DNA from: Terriglobia bacterium
GTDB taxonomy: Bacteria; Acidobacteriota; Terriglobia; UBA7540
Assembly: GCA_020072655.1 (NCBI GenBank)
Contig: JAIQGH010000020.1
Span: 1 to 36,690 of the forward strand
Direction: 5' to 3'
Length of the DNA stretch: 36,690 nucleotides
Shown: piece after piece, positions 7,947 through 36,483 of the stretch
How the letters are laid out: each line of letters begins with the position of its first letter
Position numbering within the stretch: the first letter of the stretch is position 1
Notes under the pieces: model-generated
The model's database searches: none
What the model was told of the DNA's origin: nothing
Seen by the model: the letters and a program-made list of their open reading frames with translations, nothing else
Translations under genes and position numbers: made by a program

Positions 7947-8732
7947 TTAGGGTAGTCTGAAAAGGCGCTGAAAATTCTCGACCACCCACCGGCCCATCTC
8001 TTCCTCGCTCACGCTGCGCAGTGTCGCCAGCGCCCGCGTCACCTCCCGAACGTACGCGGGCTCGTTGCGCCTACCGCGGTGCGGCACAGGCGCCAGGTAG
8101 GGGCAATCGGTTTCCGCGAGAATGCTCTCCAGCGGGATATCCTGTGCGATGGCCCGCAGCCGATCTGCCTTTTTGAACGTGATGTTTCCCGCAAAGGAAA
8201 TCAGAAATCCCCACTCGAGAAATTCGACCGCAGTTTCGCGGCTGCCCGAAAAGCAGTGAAGGATTCCGCCCAGGCCCGTGGACTTCCAATGCACCTCAAT
8301 GATGCTGGTGAGATCTTCCCACGCATCGCGACAGTGGATGATGATGGGCAGCTTCAGCTCGCCCGCGATCGCCAACTGGCGAATCAAGACGTGCTTCTGT
8401 TCTTCGCGCGGCGAGTGGTCGTAATAATAATCAAGTCCGATTTCCCCCACCCCGATGACCTTGGGATTCCGGCTTGCGGCGAGCAGCCGCTCGAAGTGCC
8501 GCTCCTCGGCCTTCGTTGCCTCGTGGGGATGGATGCCCACCGTGGCGTAGATCCAGTCGTAGCGCTCCGCGATGGGCAGCGCCGAAGCAAGATCGTCCGG
8601 GCCGCTGCCGCCGCTGATCGCGAGGATGTATCGCAGCCCTGCGGCGCGGGCGCGCTCGATCGCCGCCTCGCGGTCGGCGTCGAAAGCTGCATCATCAAGA
8701 TGGGCGTGGGAATCAACGAAGAATTGAGCCAT
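7947..8732 (-). CDS. tatD: TatD family hydrolase / metal-dependent DNase
   Basis: A 261-residue TatD-like TIM-barrel hydrolase. Metal ligands are visible: HxH in VDSHAHLDD (residues 9 and 11), Glu in GVGEIGLDYYYDHSP, His in IIHCRDAWED, His in GGILHCFSGS, and Asp in LAETDCPYLAP. Members are 3'-5' exonucleases or D-aminoacyl-tRNA deacylase-like enzymes (family knowledge). ATG at 8732 gives the usual start directly before the HxH strand. An in-frame ATG 24 nt upstream (8756) lies in the same octamer repeat arm. Neither has a strong Shine-Dalgarno sequence, so the start is the least certain part. metG lies just upstream (90 bp); a metG-tatD pair is common in bacteria. Confidence 0.92.
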   Translation of the reverse strand: MAQFFVDSHAHLDDAAFDADREAAIERARAAGLRYILAISGGSGPDDLASALPIAERYDWIYATVGIHPHEATKAEERHFERLLAASRNPKVIGVGEIGLDYYYDHSPREEQKHVLIRQLAIAGELKLPIIIHCRDAWEDLTSIIEVHWKSTGLGGILHCFSGSRETAVEFLEWGFLISFAGNITFKKADRLRAIAQDIPLESILAETDCPYLAPVPHRGRRNEPAYVREVTRALATLRSVSEEEMGRWVVENFQRLFRLP

Positions 8733-8818
8733 TGATTCATTGGTCCATTGATTCATTTCTCTGGCGTTCCATCTAGCGTGCTGCCCTCAATGGATCAATG
8801 ATTCAATGGATAAATGGA
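8729..8818. repeat. Inverted pair of octamer repeat arrays (locus A)
   Basis: Four octamers of the type CCATTGAT/TCATTGGT run at 8729-8760. Four of the inverse type TCAATGGA run at 8787-8818, with about 26 bp between. The two arms are imperfectly complementary, so a transcript would form a long hairpin between metG and tatD. The left arm contains the probable tatD start codon. Confidence 0.85.
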
Positions 8819-8822
8819 GCGA

Positions 8823-10979
8823 TCACTTCAATTTTGCTCCGACTTCCACTTCCTCCTTAAACGTGACGAGCACGGGCCTCCCCTCCGACCCGACGGTGGC
8901 GGCGACGATCATGCCGTTGGATTCCACGCCGCGCAGCTTGCGAGACTGGAGGTTGGCGACGATCACCACCTTCATGCCGACGAGCTGCTCCGGCTTGTAG
9001 TATTCAGCGATGCCGGCGACGACTTGGCGGACTTCGCTGCCAATGTCCACGGTCAGCTTCGTCAGCTTTTGCGCGCCCGCCACCGGCTCGGCCGTCAGGA
9101 TCTCGCCGACGCGCATGTCGACCTTCGCGAAATCCTCGATGGAGATCTTCTCCGCGGCGGGACTCGTGAGTCCGGAGTCGGGGCTCGGGGGCTTCGCGCT
9201 TTGTGATTCCATGGATTTCGTCTCCTTCGGCTTGTTGTGCTGGATCTGTGGGGGCACTTCGCGAAGCACCCTTACATTTGCCTTGTCGCGCTCGCGGTCG
9301 GCCTCGGCAAGCTCATCGAGCTTGGCGAGCGTCTTTTCTTTGTCCAGGCGCGGGAAGATGGGTTCGGGCTTACCAACTTTCGCGCCGGGCTTGAGGCCTG
9401 TGGGCTCGGATGGAGCATCCCATGTAGGCCACTCGCCTTGATAGCTTTCGAGCGGGTCACTCCGGCCGAGTTGCTCCCATAGTTCTTGAGCGCCGAGTGG
9501 CAAGACCGGGTAAAGGAGCAGAGCCGTAAGGCGCAGGGTTTCAGCCGACGTACGCAGTATGCTGGCAAGGCGATCCTGTTTTGAGGCGTCTCCGGCCATT
9601 ACCCATGGTTGTGTATAACCTAGATATCGATTAGTGAGAGAGACTAGCTGCCACACTGCTTCCAGACCCCCAGAAAAGTCGAAAGAATCGAAGGAACGTC
9701 GCCAGCGCACAACCGTTGCGTTCCCGACTGCTGCGAACTGATGCTGCGGCAAACTTCCTGCACCTAACGGTTCCGGCGTCTCAGGGAGGACTCCGCCAAA
9801 ATACTGATGGAGCATAGTGAGAGTTCGGGCGGCCAGATTTCCCAGATCATTTGCCAAGTCGGAGTTGTAGCGCTGGATCAACCCCTCGTACGAAAAGCTC
9901 ATGTCCTGGCCGAAGGGGGCTTCGCGGAGGAGGTAATAGCGCAGCGCATCGTTGCCCGGTGCGCCGAAGGACTCGAGCGCGCCGAGAATGGGCTCGGGAT
10001 AAACTACGTTACCTTTGGACTTCGACATCTTATCCTGCTCGTAGTAAATCCAGCCGTGGGCGAAGATTGTCTTGGGCAGCGGCAGGTCGGCGGCCATCAG
10101 GAACGCCGGCCAATAGACGGCGTGGAAGCGCAGGATATCCTTGCCGATCATGTGGACGACTTCCGCCGGCCCCTCCGCACCCATCCAGTACTTCCGGAAA
10201 TCCGGGCCGCCGTTTTCCCCCTGCGCGTAGCCGATGCCCGTGAGGTAACTCGTGAGGGCGTCGTACCAGACGTAAACAACCTGCTCGGGATCATCGCGCT
10301 CAGCATCCAATGGGAAGGGGATGCCCCACTTGATGCGCTTGCGGCTGACGGAAATATCCCGCAGGCCGCTCCTGACGAAGCTCACCACCTCGTTGCGGCG
10401 GAAGTCCGGCTGCACAAATTCAGGATGGGTCTCGTAAAGCTCCAGCAATCGCTCCTGAAACGCCGAAAGCCTGAAGAAGTAATTCTCTTCCCTGATGAGC
10501 TCCGCCGGCCGACCGCAGATGTCGCAATCCGCCGGTTCCGCGCCGTCAGAAATGTAGCGCTCGTCAGAGACGCAGTACCGTCCCTCGTACAGCCGCTTGC
10601 TAATGTAACCCTTGTCTTTGGCCCGTAGCAGCATGCGCCGCACGGAGTTCCTGTGATCGGGGTGGGTCGTGTAAATGAAGCGCAGGGAATCGCGGCCCGC
10701 GTCCGGGTACACACTCACGGACATCCCAAGCTTCTTCCAGAGCTCCACGAAAAGGTGGCGTTCTTCCGCGACGAACTCGCCCGGCGACTTCCCCGCCGCG
10801 GTGGCCGCGCGCTCGAGTTTCTCGCCGTGCTCGTCCGTCCCAGTAAGAAACGCCACGTCGTAGCCGCACATGCGTTTGTAGCGCGCAATCACGTCGCACA
10901 CGATGGTCGTGTACGCGGAGCCCACGTGCGGCCGGGCATTGGGGTAGTAAATCGGCGTGGTGAGATAGAATCTTCTCAT
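8823..10979 (-). CDS. metG: Methionine--tRNA ligase with C-terminal tRNA-binding domain
   Basis: A 718-residue class I synthetase that charges tRNA-Met. The HIGH-like motif is HVGS at 18-21 in YYPNARPHVGS. The zinc-knuckle insert holds CVSDERY followed by CDICGRPAE, where one Cys of the usual four is Asp. The KMSKS loop is in QDKMSKSKGNVV. The anticodon-binding helical domain follows. A Lys/Glu/Pro/Ser linker near 570-605 joins a C-terminal EMAP/Trbp111-like OB fold (FAKVDMRVGEI to the end), which dimerises and binds tRNA (family knowledge). The ATG at 10979 is chosen because the MRRFYLTTPIYY start is typical; the open frame upstream to 11081 is only translated octamer repeat. larC lies upstream beyond repeat locus B, tatD downstream. 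Confidence 0.96.
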   Translation of the reverse strand: MRRFYLTTPIYYPNARPHVGSAYTTIVCDVIARYKRMCGYDVAFLTGTDEHGEKLERAATAAGKSPGEFVAEERHLFVELWKKLGMSVSVYPDAGRDSLRFIYTTHPDHRNSVRRMLLRAKDKGYISKRLYEGRYCVSDERYISDGAEPADCDICGRPAELIREENYFFRLSAFQERLLELYETHPEFVQPDFRRNEVVSFVRSGLRDISVSRKRIKWGIPFPLDAERDDPEQVVYVWYDALTSYLTGIGYAQGENGGPDFRKYWMGAEGPAEVVHMIGKDILRFHAVYWPAFLMAADLPLPKTIFAHGWIYYEQDKMSKSKGNVVYPEPILGALESFGAPGNDALRYYLLREAPFGQDMSFSYEGLIQRYNSDLANDLGNLAARTLTMLHQYFGGVLPETPEPLGAGSLPQHQFAAVGNATVVRWRRSFDSFDFSGGLEAVWQLVSLTNRYLGYTQPWVMAGDASKQDRLASILRTSAETLRLTALLLYPVLPLGAQELWEQLGRSDPLESYQGEWPTWDAPSEPTGLKPGAKVGKPEPIFPRLDKEKTLAKLDELAEADRERDKANVRVLREVPPQIQHNKPKETKSMESQSAKPPSPDSGLTSPAAEKISIEDFAKVDMRVGEILTAEPVAGAQKLTKLTVDIGSEVRQVVAGIAEYYKPEQLVGMKVVIVANLQSRKLRGVESNGMIVAATVGSEGRPVLVTFKEEVEVGAKLK

Positions 10980-10980
10980 C

Positions 10981-11121
10981 GGTCCATGGGGCAATTGAAC
11001 CATTGATTCACTGATCCAGCGGTTCATTGAATCATTGAAAGGCAAAAGGGATCGCATATTCACGGTCGTTTTGCCCTTCAATGGATCAATGATTCAATGA
11101 ATCAATGGTTCGATGAATCAG
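10981..11121. repeat. Inverted pair of octamer repeat arrays (locus B)
   Basis: Eight octamers in one register run from 10981 to 11044 (GGTTCATT, GAATCATT and variants). Five inverse octamers of type TCAATGGA/TCAATGAT run from 11078 to 11117. The inner ends match as GGCAAAA and TTTTGCC. This fills the whole gap between larC and metG and would put a long imperfect hairpin in the metG leader. Confidence 0.85.
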
Positions 11122-20556: not shown

Positions 20557-21516
20557 ATGAAGGTCGGACTTTTCACCGCGCTGTTTGCCCAGCTCAGCCT
20601 GGATGAGGTGCTGAAGAAGATCAAGCCGCTCGGCATCCGCACCGTCGAGTTAGGGACGGGGAACTACCCCGGCGACCCCCACCTGAAACTCGACTGGCTG
20701 AGCGCACCGAGCAAGATCAAGGAATTCAAGAGCCGGCTCGACGACCAGGGAATCGCCATCAGCGCCCTAAGCTGCCACGGCAATCCGCTGCATCCCGACC
20801 GTAAGATTTCCGAAAAGCACGTGGAGACCAGCCGCAAGACTATCCTCATGGCCGAGAAGCTGGGCGTGCGCACGGTCAACGATTTCGCCGGCTGCCCGGG
20901 CGATTGCGAGAATGCCAAGTTCCCGAACTGGGTGACGACGCCCTGGCCGCCCGATTACCTCGAAGTTCTCGCCTGGCAGTGGGAGAAGAAGGTGATCCCG
21001 TATTGGAAGAAGCGCGCCAAATTCGCGGAAGACCACGGGGTGCGCATCGCCATCGAGATGCATCCCGGCTTCGTGGCCTACTCGCCCGAGACGCTGCTCA
21101 AGCTGCGCGCTGCGGCGGGGCACAATCTGGGCTGCAATTTTGATCCCAGCCACATGTTCTGGCAGGGCATCGACCCTTGCACCGCCATCCGCGCCCTGGG
21201 CGACGCGATCTTTCACGTTCACGCCAAGGACACGCGGATGTACGAGGTCAATTGCCGTGTCAACGGCGTTCTGGATACGAAGCCCTATAAAGACGAAAAG
21301 AGTCGTTCTTGGATCTTCCGCACCATAGGCTACGGCCACGGGGCAGAGTTCTGGAGCGATCTGGTCTCGACGCTGCAGATGGTCGGTTACGACGATGTGC
21401 TCTCCATCGAGCACGAGGACAGCCTGATGTCGGTCGACGAGGGTCTGGCCAAGGCCGCCACCCTCCTCAATCAGGTCATCATTAAGGAAAGACTGAAAGA
21501 AATGTGGTGGGCGTAA
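20557..21516 (+). CDS. Sugar phosphate isomerase/epimerase (xylose-isomerase-like TIM barrel)
   Basis: A 319-residue AP-endonuclease-2 superfamily protein, as in IolE, IolI, tagatose epimerase and related sugar enzymes (family knowledge). Likely metal ligands are Glu in IAIEMHPG, Asp and His in CNFDPSHMFWQG, His in FHVHAKD and Glu in LSIEHEDSLMS. The start MKVGLFTALF with AGGAG 7 nt upstream is clear. It is the first gene of a plus-strand cluster with a Gfo/Idh oxidoreductase and xylulokinase, which suggests a route oxidising and isomerising a sugar or inositol-like compound to a ketopentose. A 128-bp octamer array separates it from the next gene. Substrate unknown. Confidence 0.88.
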   Translation: MKVGLFTALFAQLSLDEVLKKIKPLGIRTVELGTGNYPGDPHLKLDWLSAPSKIKEFKSRLDDQGIAISALSCHGNPLHPDRKISEKHVETSRKTILMAEKLGVRTVNDFAGCPGDCENAKFPNWVTTPWPPDYLEVLAWQWEKKVIPYWKKRAKFAEDHGVRIAIEMHPGFVAYSPETLLKLRAAAGHNLGCNFDPSHMFWQGIDPCTAIRALGDAIFHVHAKDTRMYEVNCRVNGVLDTKPYKDEKSRSWIFRTIGYGHGAEFWSDLVSTLQMVGYDDVLSIEHEDSLMSVDEGLAKAATLLNQVIIKERLKEMWWA

Positions 21517-21520
21517 GAAT

Positions 21521-21648
21521 CGATTCATCGGGCCATCGAGCCATCGGTTGATCGGGCGAGCGGTTCCTCGGTCTATCTGGGAATTGTTCAATGATTCGAT
21601 GGATCGATGGCCAGATCAACCGATGACCCGATGGCTCGATGGCTCAAT
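21521..21648. repeat. Octamer repeat array, 16 units in register, inverted halves (locus C)
   Basis: Sixteen consecutive 8-bp units without loss of register. The first seven or eight are of type CGRKYCAT (CGATTCAT, CGGGCCAT, CGAGCCAT). The later ones are of inverse type ending CGAT (GATTCGAT, GGATCGAT, GGCTCGAT). The halves can pair into a long imperfect hairpin between the isomerase and oxidoreductase genes. Confidence 0.9.
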
Positions 21649-21660
21649 CGCCAGTTTTCC

Positions 21661-21688
21661 GTCGCTCGTCACTTGTCACCCGTCACTT
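21661..21688. repeat. Heptamer tandem array
   Basis: Four 7-bp units, GTCGCTC, GTCACTT, GTCACCC, GTCACTT, directly before the ribosome site of the oxidoreductase gene. It follows octamer locus C by 12 bp. Confidence 0.8.
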
Positions 21689-22876: not shown

Positions 22877-22886
22877 TTTGCAGAGG

Positions 22887-22914
22887 GAAGTCAGAAGCCA
22901 GAAGTCAGAAGAAG
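22887..22914. repeat. Heptamer array, left flank of the four-helix-bundle gene
   Basis: Four 7-bp units of GAAGYCA type (GAAGTCA, GAAGCCA, GAAGTCA, GAAGAAG). Its 22893-22911 part is a perfect 19-bp inverted match to 23286-23304 on the other side of the gene. Confidence 0.88.
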
Positions 22915-22924
22915 GGAAGGTGAA

Positions 22925-23320
22925 ATGGCTGCTGATCGCAGAATGGCGAGGACTTTCGAGGACCTCCTTGTTTGGCAGAAATCTCATGAACTCGTATTGT
23001 CTGTCTACAAACTGACGGCTACTTTTCCCAAATCCGAAACGTATGGTCTCTCGATTCAGATGAGGCGTGCGGTAGTATCTGTTCCGGCCAATATCGCCGA
23101 AGGATTCCGAAAACGCGGTAAACCTGATAAGGCTCGATTCATGAACACCGCCGAAGGGTCGCTGGAGGAAACTCGCTACTACTTGAAGCTGGCCCAGGAT
23201 TTGGGCTACGGTCAGACGGCAGCCATCTTGCGCCAGGTCGAAGAAATCAGCAGACTTCTCGACGCTTATTCAAAGGCTATTCTGGCTTCTGACTTCTGGC
23301 TTCTCGTTCGGGACTTCTGA
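22925..23320 (+). CDS. Four-helix-bundle protein (S23-like, IVP family)
   Basis: A 131-residue protein of the 23S rRNA intervening-sequence (S23) family: FEDLLVWQKSHELVLSVYKLTATFPKSE, YGLSIQMRRAVVSVPANIAEGFRKR and the late helix SLEETRYYLKLAQDLGY are its hallmarks. The role is unknown; members assemble as pentamers of four-helix bundles (family knowledge). It interrupts a sugar catabolism cluster with which it has no obvious tie. It is bounded by inverted heptamer arrays, and its last residues (ASDFWLLVRDF) are translated from the right-hand array. That suggests a unit that was inserted or moved together with its repeats. GGAAGG lies 4 nt before the ATG. A second Met at residue 7 is an alternative start. 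Confidence 0.9.
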   Translation: MAADRRMARTFEDLLVWQKSHELVLSVYKLTATFPKSETYGLSIQMRRAVVSVPANIAEGFRKRGKPDKARFMNTAEGSLEETRYYLKLAQDLGYGQTAAILRQVEEISRLLDAYSKAILASDFWLLVRDF

Positions 23321-23335
23321 CTCCTGACTCCTTCT
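23280..23335. repeat. Heptamer array, right flank of the four-helix-bundle gene
   Basis: Eight 7-bp units of type TTCTGRC in one register (TTCTGGC, TTCTGAC, then variants such as TCGGGAC and TCCTGAC). The first half is the inverse of the array at 22887. It overlaps the end of the four-helix-bundle gene and stops just before the xylulokinase ribosome site. Confidence 0.88.
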
Positions 23336-30547: not shown

Positions 30548-30569
30548 TCAACCCTCGTGTGGTGTACTC

Positions 30570-30611
30570 GAAACTGGAAACTGGAAATTGGAAATTGGAA
30601 AATCGAAACTC
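30570..30611. repeat. Heptamer tandem array, fadA-fadE gap
   Basis: Six 7-bp units in register of type GAAAYTG (GAAACTG twice, GAAATTG twice, GAAAATC, GAAACTC), filling most of the gap between fadA and fadE. Confidence 0.9.
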
Positions 30612-30641
30612 GGGATTCGGGCCCGTGACCGACGCTCGGGA

Positions 30642-34366: not shown

Positions 34367-34452
34367 AACTTGCCTCCGGATGGGTAGTCAAAGCCCTCGA
34401 AGGCATTATGGCGGACAGTCCAAAAGCCGGTCAAGCGCGGCAGGGGGAATTA

Positions 34453-34548
34453 TGAAGGGTGAATTGTGAATGCTGAATAAAAGAACCCCGAACTTCCCGA
34501 CCTCCGTTTTACGCAGTGGACTGTTCACCGTTCACTATCCACTGTTCA
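34453..34548. repeat. Two heptamer arrays between ppiD and fadN
   Basis: First, four units of type TGAATTG at 34453-34480 (TGAAGGG, TGAATTG, TGAATGC, TGAATAA). Second, five units at 34514-34548 of type CTGTTCA (CAGTGGA, CTGTTCA, CCGTTCA, CTATCCA, CTGTTCA). The last CTGTTCA carries the ppiD stop codon (TCA at 34546-34548, TGA on the minus strand). Confidence 0.85.
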
Positions 34549-36483
34549 CGATTTTTGATAGGTCGCCAGGAATTTCTTCATGGCCGCTTCGTTTACCTTC
34601 AGCTTCCCGGAGGCAAGAAGTTGCTGCTTGAGGCTCTGCTGATAGATCTCCCAGGCGAGGCTGCGCTTCCGCTCCAGAAGCTCTTCAGCGATCTGGTCCT
34701 GCTGCCCGGCGAGTTCGGACTCGGGCGCAGGCGTGCGCGCCGTAACACGGAAGACCACGCGGTTTGCCCCCACCTGCACCGCTTCGCTTGTCTGGCCGGC
34801 AGCGAGCCCGAAAGCCGCGGCAAGCTGCGTGCCTGAGCCCACTCCCTCGACGTAGTCCTGCTCGGTGAAGTCCTTGCTCTCCTTAACGGTAAGGCCCATC
34901 GCCTGCGCCACCTTCTTGAAGTCGCCAGCTTTTGCCTTGGCGGCGAATTCCTGGGCCCTTTGCGCAGCCAGTTCCTGCGATTTCGCCGCGCGATAATCCT
35001 CCTCGACCGCGGCGCGGACTTCCTCGAACTTCGGCGTGTGCTCGGGAAGGATCTCGACCACCTGAATGATCGCGGTCCCTTTGGGGACCGAGATGGGCTG
35101 GCCGATAGCGCCCTGACGGAGCTGGAAGGCCAGGTTATGGAACGACTCGCTGGTGCCGAAGTCCGTCACGGGCTGGTTGTAGCGGAAGAGCGGGGTCTCC
35201 TTCGCTTCCAGGCGGTTCTTCGTAGCCACGGCCGCGAAGTTCTGCGGGTCTTGTTGGAGTTGCCGCTCGATGTTGCTGGCGATGGTCTGCTGGGCGTCCG
35301 CCAGGCGCTGCTTGTCGAGCTGCTCGCGAATCTGGTTCTTCACCTCATCGAAGGTTTGGAGATGCGCGGTCTGCCGGTCCAGGACTTTAATGATGTGAAA
35401 TCCATAGGTTGTCTTGATGAGGTCGCTCACCTGGCCGGGCTTCATCGAAAAGGCCGCGTCTTCGAATTCCTTCACCGTCTGCCCGCGAACGATCCAGCCG
35501 ATTTCACCCCCGTTCGAGGCGCTCGAGTCTTCGGAATACTTCTTGGCCATCTCCCCGAAGTCGGCGCCCGCCTTGATTTGAGCCAGAACGTCGCGTGCGG
35601 TCTTTTCGAGCGTCGCAATCTCCTCCGGCGTCTTGCCCTCGGTCTTGAACAGGATGTGGCTTACCTTGACGCGGTCGGAAACCTGGTAATCGGCGAGGTG
35701 TTGGCCGTAGTACTGCGTCAGATCGGCGTCGGTCACTTTCACGCCCGCGCGCACATAGTCGGTATCCATCAACGCGTAGCGAACCCGGCGCTCCTCGGGT
35801 AGTTTGTATTTGGCAGGATCTTTCTCAAAGAACTCCTCGAGCGCCTTGGGCGTCACCTCCACGGCCTTCAGGAATTGACTCGGGTCGAAGAGGACGTAGT
35901 CCATCCGCACTTTGGTATCGCGCCGGACGAATTCGTCGCGCACCTCGTCGGGCGAGACCCGCACGCCGTCGGTGACGATGGCGCGTATCTTCTCGAGCAG
36001 CAGGCTCTCGCGGTACTGGGCTTCGAACTGCGGCACCGACAGGCCCGCCTGTTGCGAGATGAAATCGCGGTAGCGGTCCATGCCCACAAAGGTCCCGTTG
36101 GGATAGAGGAACGGCATGGAGGTACGGATGCTTTCCTGGACCTCGGCGTTGGACACGTCGATACCCAGCTTCTTCGCCTGCCCCCACAGCGCCCGGCGCA
36201 GGATCATGTCATCGAGGACAGTGCCCGCCATCCGCGAGATGATTTGCGGGTCGTTGGCGAGCGGCGAATTGCGCAGGCGGGATTGGATACTGCGCCCCAG
36301 ATCCGTGGAAGTAATCTGCGCGCCGCCCACGCTGGCGAGAACGTTGGACTCCAGGGATTCCGAGTCGCTGCCCGGAAAGATCGGCGCCAGCGTCACCACC
36401 ATGCCGACGGACGTGATACCCAGTATGAAGGCCAAAATCCATTTCTTGACCGCTTCCGGCCTTTTCTTGAATAACCTAAACAT
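34546..36483 (-). CDS. ppiD: PpiD/SurA-like peptidyl-prolyl isomerase, membrane-anchored
   Basis: A 645-residue periplasmic foldase. A short cytosolic start (FRLFKKRPEAVKK) and one membrane helix at about 14-34 anchor it. A SurA-N-like helical domain follows (VGGAQITSTDLGRSIQSRL; MILRRALWGQAKKLGIDVSNAEV). A parvulin domain (VKVSHILFKTEGKTPEE through SASNGGEIGWIVRGQTV to YGFHIIKVLDRQ) lies at roughly 275-380. A second, weaker rotamase-like region and a C-terminal helical part complete the PpiD layout (family knowledge: it helps fold secreted and outer-membrane proteins). ATG at 36483 has GGAGG upstream; the longer frame to 36552 runs into a palindromic repeat. Its last codons end in a heptamer array. 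fadN follows downstream on the same strand but is functionally unrelated. Confidence 0.92.
   Translation of the reverse strand: MFRLFKKRPEAVKKWILAFILGITSVGMVVTLAPIFPGSDSESLESNVLASVGGAQITSTDLGRSIQSRLRNSPLANDPQIISRMAGTVLDDMILRRALWGQAKKLGIDVSNAEVQESIRTSMPFLYPNGTFVGMDRYRDFISQQAGLSVPQFEAQYRESLLLEKIRAIVTDGVRVSPDEVRDEFVRRDTKVRMDYVLFDPSQFLKAVEVTPKALEEFFEKDPAKYKLPEERRVRYALMDTDYVRAGVKVTDADLTQYYGQHLADYQVSDRVKVSHILFKTEGKTPEEIATLEKTARDVLAQIKAGADFGEMAKKYSEDSSASNGGEIGWIVRGQTVKEFEDAAFSMKPGQVSDLIKTTYGFHIIKVLDRQTAHLQTFDEVKNQIREQLDKQRLADAQQTIASNIERQLQQDPQNFAAVATKNRLEAKETPLFRYNQPVTDFGTSESFHNLAFQLRQGAIGQPISVPKGTAIIQVVEILPEHTPKFEEVRAAVEEDYRAAKSQELAAQRAQEFAAKAKAGDFKKVAQAMGLTVKESKDFTEQDYVEGVGSGTQLAAAFGLAAGQTSEAVQVGANRVVFRVTARTPAPESELAGQQDQIAEELLERKRSLAWEIYQQSLKQQLLASGKLKVNEAAMKKFLATYQKS

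Follow-up and report, generated by a model that had tools for sequence, protein, structure and literature searches.

Intervening sequences (IVS) of 23S rRNA, known from Coxiella and Leptospira, contain an S23p (PF05635) gene within a long stem-loop bounded by terminal inverted repeats. The described IVS are located in helices 9, 25 or 45 of 23S rRNA and are excised by RNase III. To our knowledge, no transposase-like catalysis has been described for PF05635. Two other systems recall the hairpins reported here: REP/REPIN sequences with RAYT, which are many small intergenic palindromes, mostly gene-less, with a dispersed partner protein, and the cyanobacterial STRR, which are intergenic tandem heptamers of unexplained origin. 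In the Coxiella IVS, the S23p gene is accompanied by terminal inverted repeats and by tandem heptamers whose number differs from strain to strain; in one strain the gene is partly deleted (PMC4990558). The TAACTGA repeats of Beggiatoaceae are likewise intergenic tandem heptamers whose origin is unexplained; they have been described as direct repeats, of which only one is indirect, and the abstract of that report states no link to PF05635 (PMC4679880). REPs are reported as palindromes of 20-40 bp that are sorted by a fixed terminal tag (PMC3733652). The open-access papers searched yielded no link between PF05635 and arms of period 7 or 8 beyond the Coxiella IVS.

We analysed a 36,690-nt stretch of DNA from a Terriglobia bacterium (hereafter the window; its genome is G000), in which an array of octamers occupies positions 21521-21648. 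We consider this array most likely to be a hairpin left by a small selfish element of the IVS-like kind, from which the gene is missing.

Repeat hairpins in the window

The region 21521-21648 consists of exactly 16 octamers, with an identity of 0.625 at lag 8 and 0.589 at lag 16, compared with 0.25 ± 0.04 in shuffled sequences (0/20,000 as high). Its plan is that of two inverted arms, (NYCATYGR)n-loop-(YCRATSRN)n. The left arm (21519-21570, units GGCCATCG and AGCCATCG) starts 2 bases past the upstream stop codon and is followed by a poorly conserved centre or loop (21571-21596) and by the right arm of CGATGGCT-type units (21597-21652). As an inverted pair, 21519-21570 and 21597-21648 are 52 nt long, 77% complementary and 26 nt apart, and the predicted fold of the transcript has an energy of -92.9 kcal/mol (z = -4.6). 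The first-pass annotation had described sixteen register-perfect octamers. The number and the length register hold, but the central units (about 21553-21592) match the consensus poorly, so that the register is one of length rather than of sequence. The hairpin contains no gene, and no gene remnant was seen in it. It lies between a sugar-isomerase-like gene (20557-21516, weak match to iolE) and a gene resembling levoglucosan dehydrogenase (best NCBIfam match, under its cut-off).

Two further octamer hairpins are present in the window, one between metG and tatD (8722-8818, arms 8722-8758 and 8787-8818) and one between larC and metG (10976-11120, arms about 10976-11047 and 11069-11120). In a scan of the whole window, the lag-8 signal was confined to the surroundings of the array at 21521-21648 and of the metG locus, while the tatD side was visible at lag 16. 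The unit at 21521-21648 had been regarded as CG-rich and distinct from those of the metG and tatD loci, but YCRATSRN fits the units of all three arrays, the right arm carrying this motif and the left its complement, which places them in one family; the CG-rich appearance results mainly from an A>G change (CAAT to CGAT) shared by most units of the array. Arm complementarity of the three window hairpins was not above that of unit-order shuffles (p 0.57-0.79). The pairing at 21521-21648 is therefore explained by the shared unit, and copying of one arm from the other is unsupported for these three hairpins. The start codons of tatD and metG likely lie inside the last octamer units (8735-8756 and 10975-11081), so the starts listed for the open reading frames (8756 and 11081) probably lie too far upstream.

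Heptamers were also found. A CGTCACT array (21659-21687) adjoins the octamer hairpin; three relatives (G008, G023 and G024) have similar heptamers at the corresponding end of the orthologous gap, and in G023 these form the right arm of a full element. The window itself contains a full element one gene beyond the hairpin, made up of a left arm of GAAGTCA heptamers (22882-22915), a PF05635 gene on the plus strand (22925-23320; 23S_rRNA_IVP or S23p four-helix bundle, 131 aa) and a right arm of TTCTGAC heptamers (23277-23332), into which the 3' end of the gene extends. The two arms are inverted partners at 19/20 bases. A GAAACTG array (30563-30615) has no clear partner, and a weak heptamer hairpin of GTGAATA / TATTCAC type (34452-34549) has an inverted score of 15/20, which is near background.

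Repeat periods and PF05635 lineages

The triple-octamer pattern had 148 matches in G000 and the reversed-pattern control had 0. A census of arrays covered 433 kb of this genome, in stretches picked partly for octamer arrays. Period-7 arrays, which played no part in that choice, numbered 61 compared with 2 in shuffles, and period-8 arrays 32 compared with 2, a density that, owing to the choice of stretches, is not representative of the whole genome; the excess was about 15- to 30-fold. Other periods were near background, save 14, which is twice 7, and 12, where the excess was slight. The lag-8 signal had been expected to exceed that of shuffled intergenic sequence, and lags 7 and 8 indeed lay far above the shuffles. 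An inverted partner was found within 700 bp for about 60% of arrays, above the level of random sites, and most hairpins of the genome were without a gene. Among family relatives, mostly metagenome bins like the other comparison genomes, the octamer pattern had at least one match in 31/36 and none in 5/36, and genomes of the class outside the order had none, stray ones aside.

The 17 PF05635 genes of G000 all have repeat-like flanks, namely inverted short tandem arrays of element-specific units, and the arms of 16 were classed as period 7 or 8 (L072 was unclassed). We then examined 80 named PF05635 loci from Acidobacteria, Chlorobi, Bacteroidetes, Nitrospirae, Verrucomicrobia, Planctomycetes, Chloroflexi, candidate phyla and others; an inverted pair scoring at least 15/18 was present at 63/79 of the named loci and in 1/185 random pairs. 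Over 153 loci, including named genomes from well over a dozen phyla, the arms had period 7 at 88, period 8 at 44 and alternating 7 and 8 at 4, and were unclear at 17. Seven- and eight-base steps alternate, with a period of 15, at L078, L122, L146, L172 and L195; such elements are possibly a transition between the two periods. PF05635 was the only gene seen within full elements. A complete element is composed of a left arm of 7- or 8-bp tandem units, the PF05635 gene and an inverted right arm.

Period follows protein lineage. On a tree of 148 PF05635 proteins, which was built from few columns and in which near-copies inflate the clustering of period, period changed 10 times, compared with 35.4 times when shuffled (0/500 as low), and period-8 proteins from different phyla clustered together. 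Octamer counts tracked the presence of an octamer-type protein over 37 family genomes (rho 0.62, p = 3e-4), with G016 (55 octamer matches) and G029 (32), both incomplete MAGs, as exceptions that had no strong octamer-type protein. Sister proteins have arm units in common (GGGTGCT in L066/L069, GAAAYTN in L070/L071). In the 107 gene-bearing elements taken as a set, the arm match exceeded unit-shuffled controls (combined p 9e-26), in support of copying between arms, an excess to which array ends may contribute in part.

Several further repeats were observed. At L023:13980-14196, a tandem duplication of about 104 bp takes in the 3' end of the octamer-type S23 gene and its right arm. G000 has a second family of octamer-type hairpins, CCACGAAGACACAAAGGCACAAGG and its inverse, at L023:978-1098, L025:6497-6612, L025:13352-13464 and L030:7664-7770. 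In relatives (L235, L237, L240 and L242), GxxExxY (PF13366) genes stand between arms of period 8 or 9 that resemble the CCACGAAGACACAAAGGCACAAGG family; this architecture may thus be shared by a second protein family. As a mobilising nuclease, PF13366 was rejected, with 0 matches in both G000 and G001.

Shared junctions, orientation and possible origins

The same junctions were compared in relatives. In the gap orthologous to that of 21521-21648, heptamer arms stand in place of the octamer hairpin and surround a four-helix-bundle gene in G001, G003, G011 and G023. No base-level alignment of this gap was obtained with G001, a member of the same genus, because G001 has a different, full element there. 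At the metG-tatD junction, G021 and G026 have the full octamer element, G000, G001, G008, G009 and G023 the octamer hairpin alone, G003 and G004 full heptamer elements, and G037 no insertion. The first unit there contains the metG stop codon, and the last contains the tatD start codon where tatD follows. This pattern fits an octamer element that lost its gene and was replaced in some lineages, and may also come from recurrent insertion at one spot. No target-site duplication and no empty site within a species was seen; the empty sites of G037 and G003 were too divergent for such a comparison. Inside the octamer hairpin of G004 (L224, larC-metG gap, about 1290-1580), a palindromic repeat TGTCATTCTGAGC...CTCAGAATGACA was observed, and a palindrome of the same type is present in the orthologous gap of G016 (L050:1-292).

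Arrays also changed within the genus. The metG-tatD hairpin of G001 has one octamer more than that of G000, with an identical loop, and another orthologous octamer hairpin kept its CATTGA cores while spacer bases changed. Among further G000/G001 gaps, one hairpin was nearly unchanged and one octamer hairpin was replaced by a heptamer hairpin. The drift interpretation of the first-pass annotation was thus partly right. Local gain and change of units are seen, and orthologous gaps are not conserved base for base, since units were gained and spacers changed between G000 and G001. Its further conclusion, that the arrays are not copies of one mobile sequence, finds no support, given the arms that bracket PF05635 genes at 16 or all 17 of the loci in G000 and at most loci elsewhere, the period that tracks protein lineage, and the sites that hold full elements or bare hairpins depending on the genus. 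An undescribed repeat-generating process, as it had also suggested, may stand behind the arrays.

Most elements lie in the sense of their neighbours. Of those with near neighbours, 94/110 were oriented with the upstream gene, and between co-directional genes 73 element genes ran with them and 6 against, in counts that took simple open reading frames as the neighbour genes and in which the strand of some downstream ones was likely miscalled. Operon genes are mostly co-directional anyway, so this bias indicates co-transcription more surely than the mode of insertion. Hairpins sit tightly between stop and start codons, some providing the start codon of the next gene, and are rarer in divergent gaps (2/34 compared with 47/240). 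Placed between a stop and the next start, with the gene usually in the same direction, an element would be co-transcribed as a long stem-loop.

An alternative is that slippage and gene conversion make arrays in intergenic DNA, and that PF05635 genes insert preferentially into them, the arrays being targets and not components of an element. Most arrays lack a gene, units are gained between orthologues, and the arms of the window hairpins have the unit rather than the unit order in common, all of which agree with this explanation. We nevertheless consider it unlikely, because period tracks protein lineage across phyla, only periods 7 and 8 are prominent, unlike the spread expected of slippage, arrays occur in inverted pairs, arm units are common to sister proteins, and the sense orientation is strongly skewed. 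It is less probable still that the hairpins are host regulatory elements under selection, serving intercistronic RNA processing, mRNA stability or termination, with S23 as a host regulator binding them. Such a role would suit the tight stop-to-start placement, the depletion in divergent gaps, the strong folding and the start codons supplied by some hairpins; against it, orthologous gaps of the family are variously empty or occupied by a full element or by a hairpin of octamers or heptamers, no conserved association with particular genes was seen, and these positions are also those where insertions do least harm.

The structure of the protein bears on how an element might be copied. The structural model of the octamer-type protein (pLDDT 96) had 2rld as its best match, and the solved relatives 2rld and 2gsc were each deposited with five chains; the S23p structure from Xanthomonas is reported as a homopentamer (PMC4990558). 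The model also matched Avd (4dwl) and a diversity-generating retroelement complex (8ub7) with a probability near 1 and E-values of 0.05-0.2. Reverse transcriptase (PF00078) had 0 matches in G000 (96% complete) and was also absent from G001, G008, G011, G016, G020 and G023, all rich in octamer arrays. Copying of the element via RNA by a reverse transcriptase, which the resemblance of PF05635 to Avd (PMC10053308) and the sense bias of insertions would suggest, is the least probable of the explanations, since in this genome it would need an enzyme missed by PF00078.

For the small IVS-like element, our best reading of the comparative and modelling results is that its protein would act on the element's own periodic stem, as RNA or as DNA. 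The S23 protein may recognise the periodic arms and help to copy the element to new sites, units may be added and homogenised via slippage and arm-to-arm copying, and bare hairpins may be relics or non-autonomous copies. Since most hairpins here have no gene, either a gene-independent process also contributes or relics last long. A broader proposal, which we hold only tentatively and think rather doubtful, is that S23/IVP elements form a very widespread, unrecognised class of tiny mobile elements that move without a transposase or reverse transcriptase, that their protein sets the period (7 or 8 bp) of its own arms, and that its footprint is the short tandem arrays found in many bacterial genomes. 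An IVS-like origin of the hairpins would account at once for the tandem arrays of 7 and 8 bp that are scattered through intergenic DNA and would link these arrays with a very common protein family that has no known function. The rRNA intervening sequences would then be particular instances of a more general element. That period goes with protein lineage can be tested at the bench and could reveal the role of S23p.

Comparison with described elements

Several known elements share parts of this architecture. Foldback/Galileo elements of Drosophila likewise end in long inverted repeats that are internally repetitive (PMC3573991), but Galileo belongs with P-element-type transposases, whereas the sole gene here encodes a four-helix bundle that is small, at about 120 aa. 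Inverted terminal repeats and putatively non-autonomous copies, as in MITE and foldback elements, are found here as well. REP/RAYT differ in architecture on inspection, since the arms here are built of short tandem repeats with many different sequences and the protein is not a Y1 transposase. Avd of the diversity-generating retroelements has the same four-helix-bundle fold, but the reverse transcriptase of those retroelements had no PF00078 counterpart in G000.

The IVS of 23S rRNA come closest. Terminal inverted repeats forming a stem are present here, and the variable number of tandem heptamers beside the Coxiella gene has its parallel in the arms of period 7 or 8 and in the unit gain between G000 and G001. 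An S23p gene in the loop is found in full elements, including that with the gene at 22925-23320, but not in the hairpin at 21521-21648. Unlike the described IVS, the elements examined here have fully periodic 7- or 8-bp arms, occur in many copies that are mostly gene-less, and lie between protein-coding genes. Most likely, the array at 21521-21648 derives from an IVS-like element, lacks its ORF and was inserted not in rRNA but between genes.
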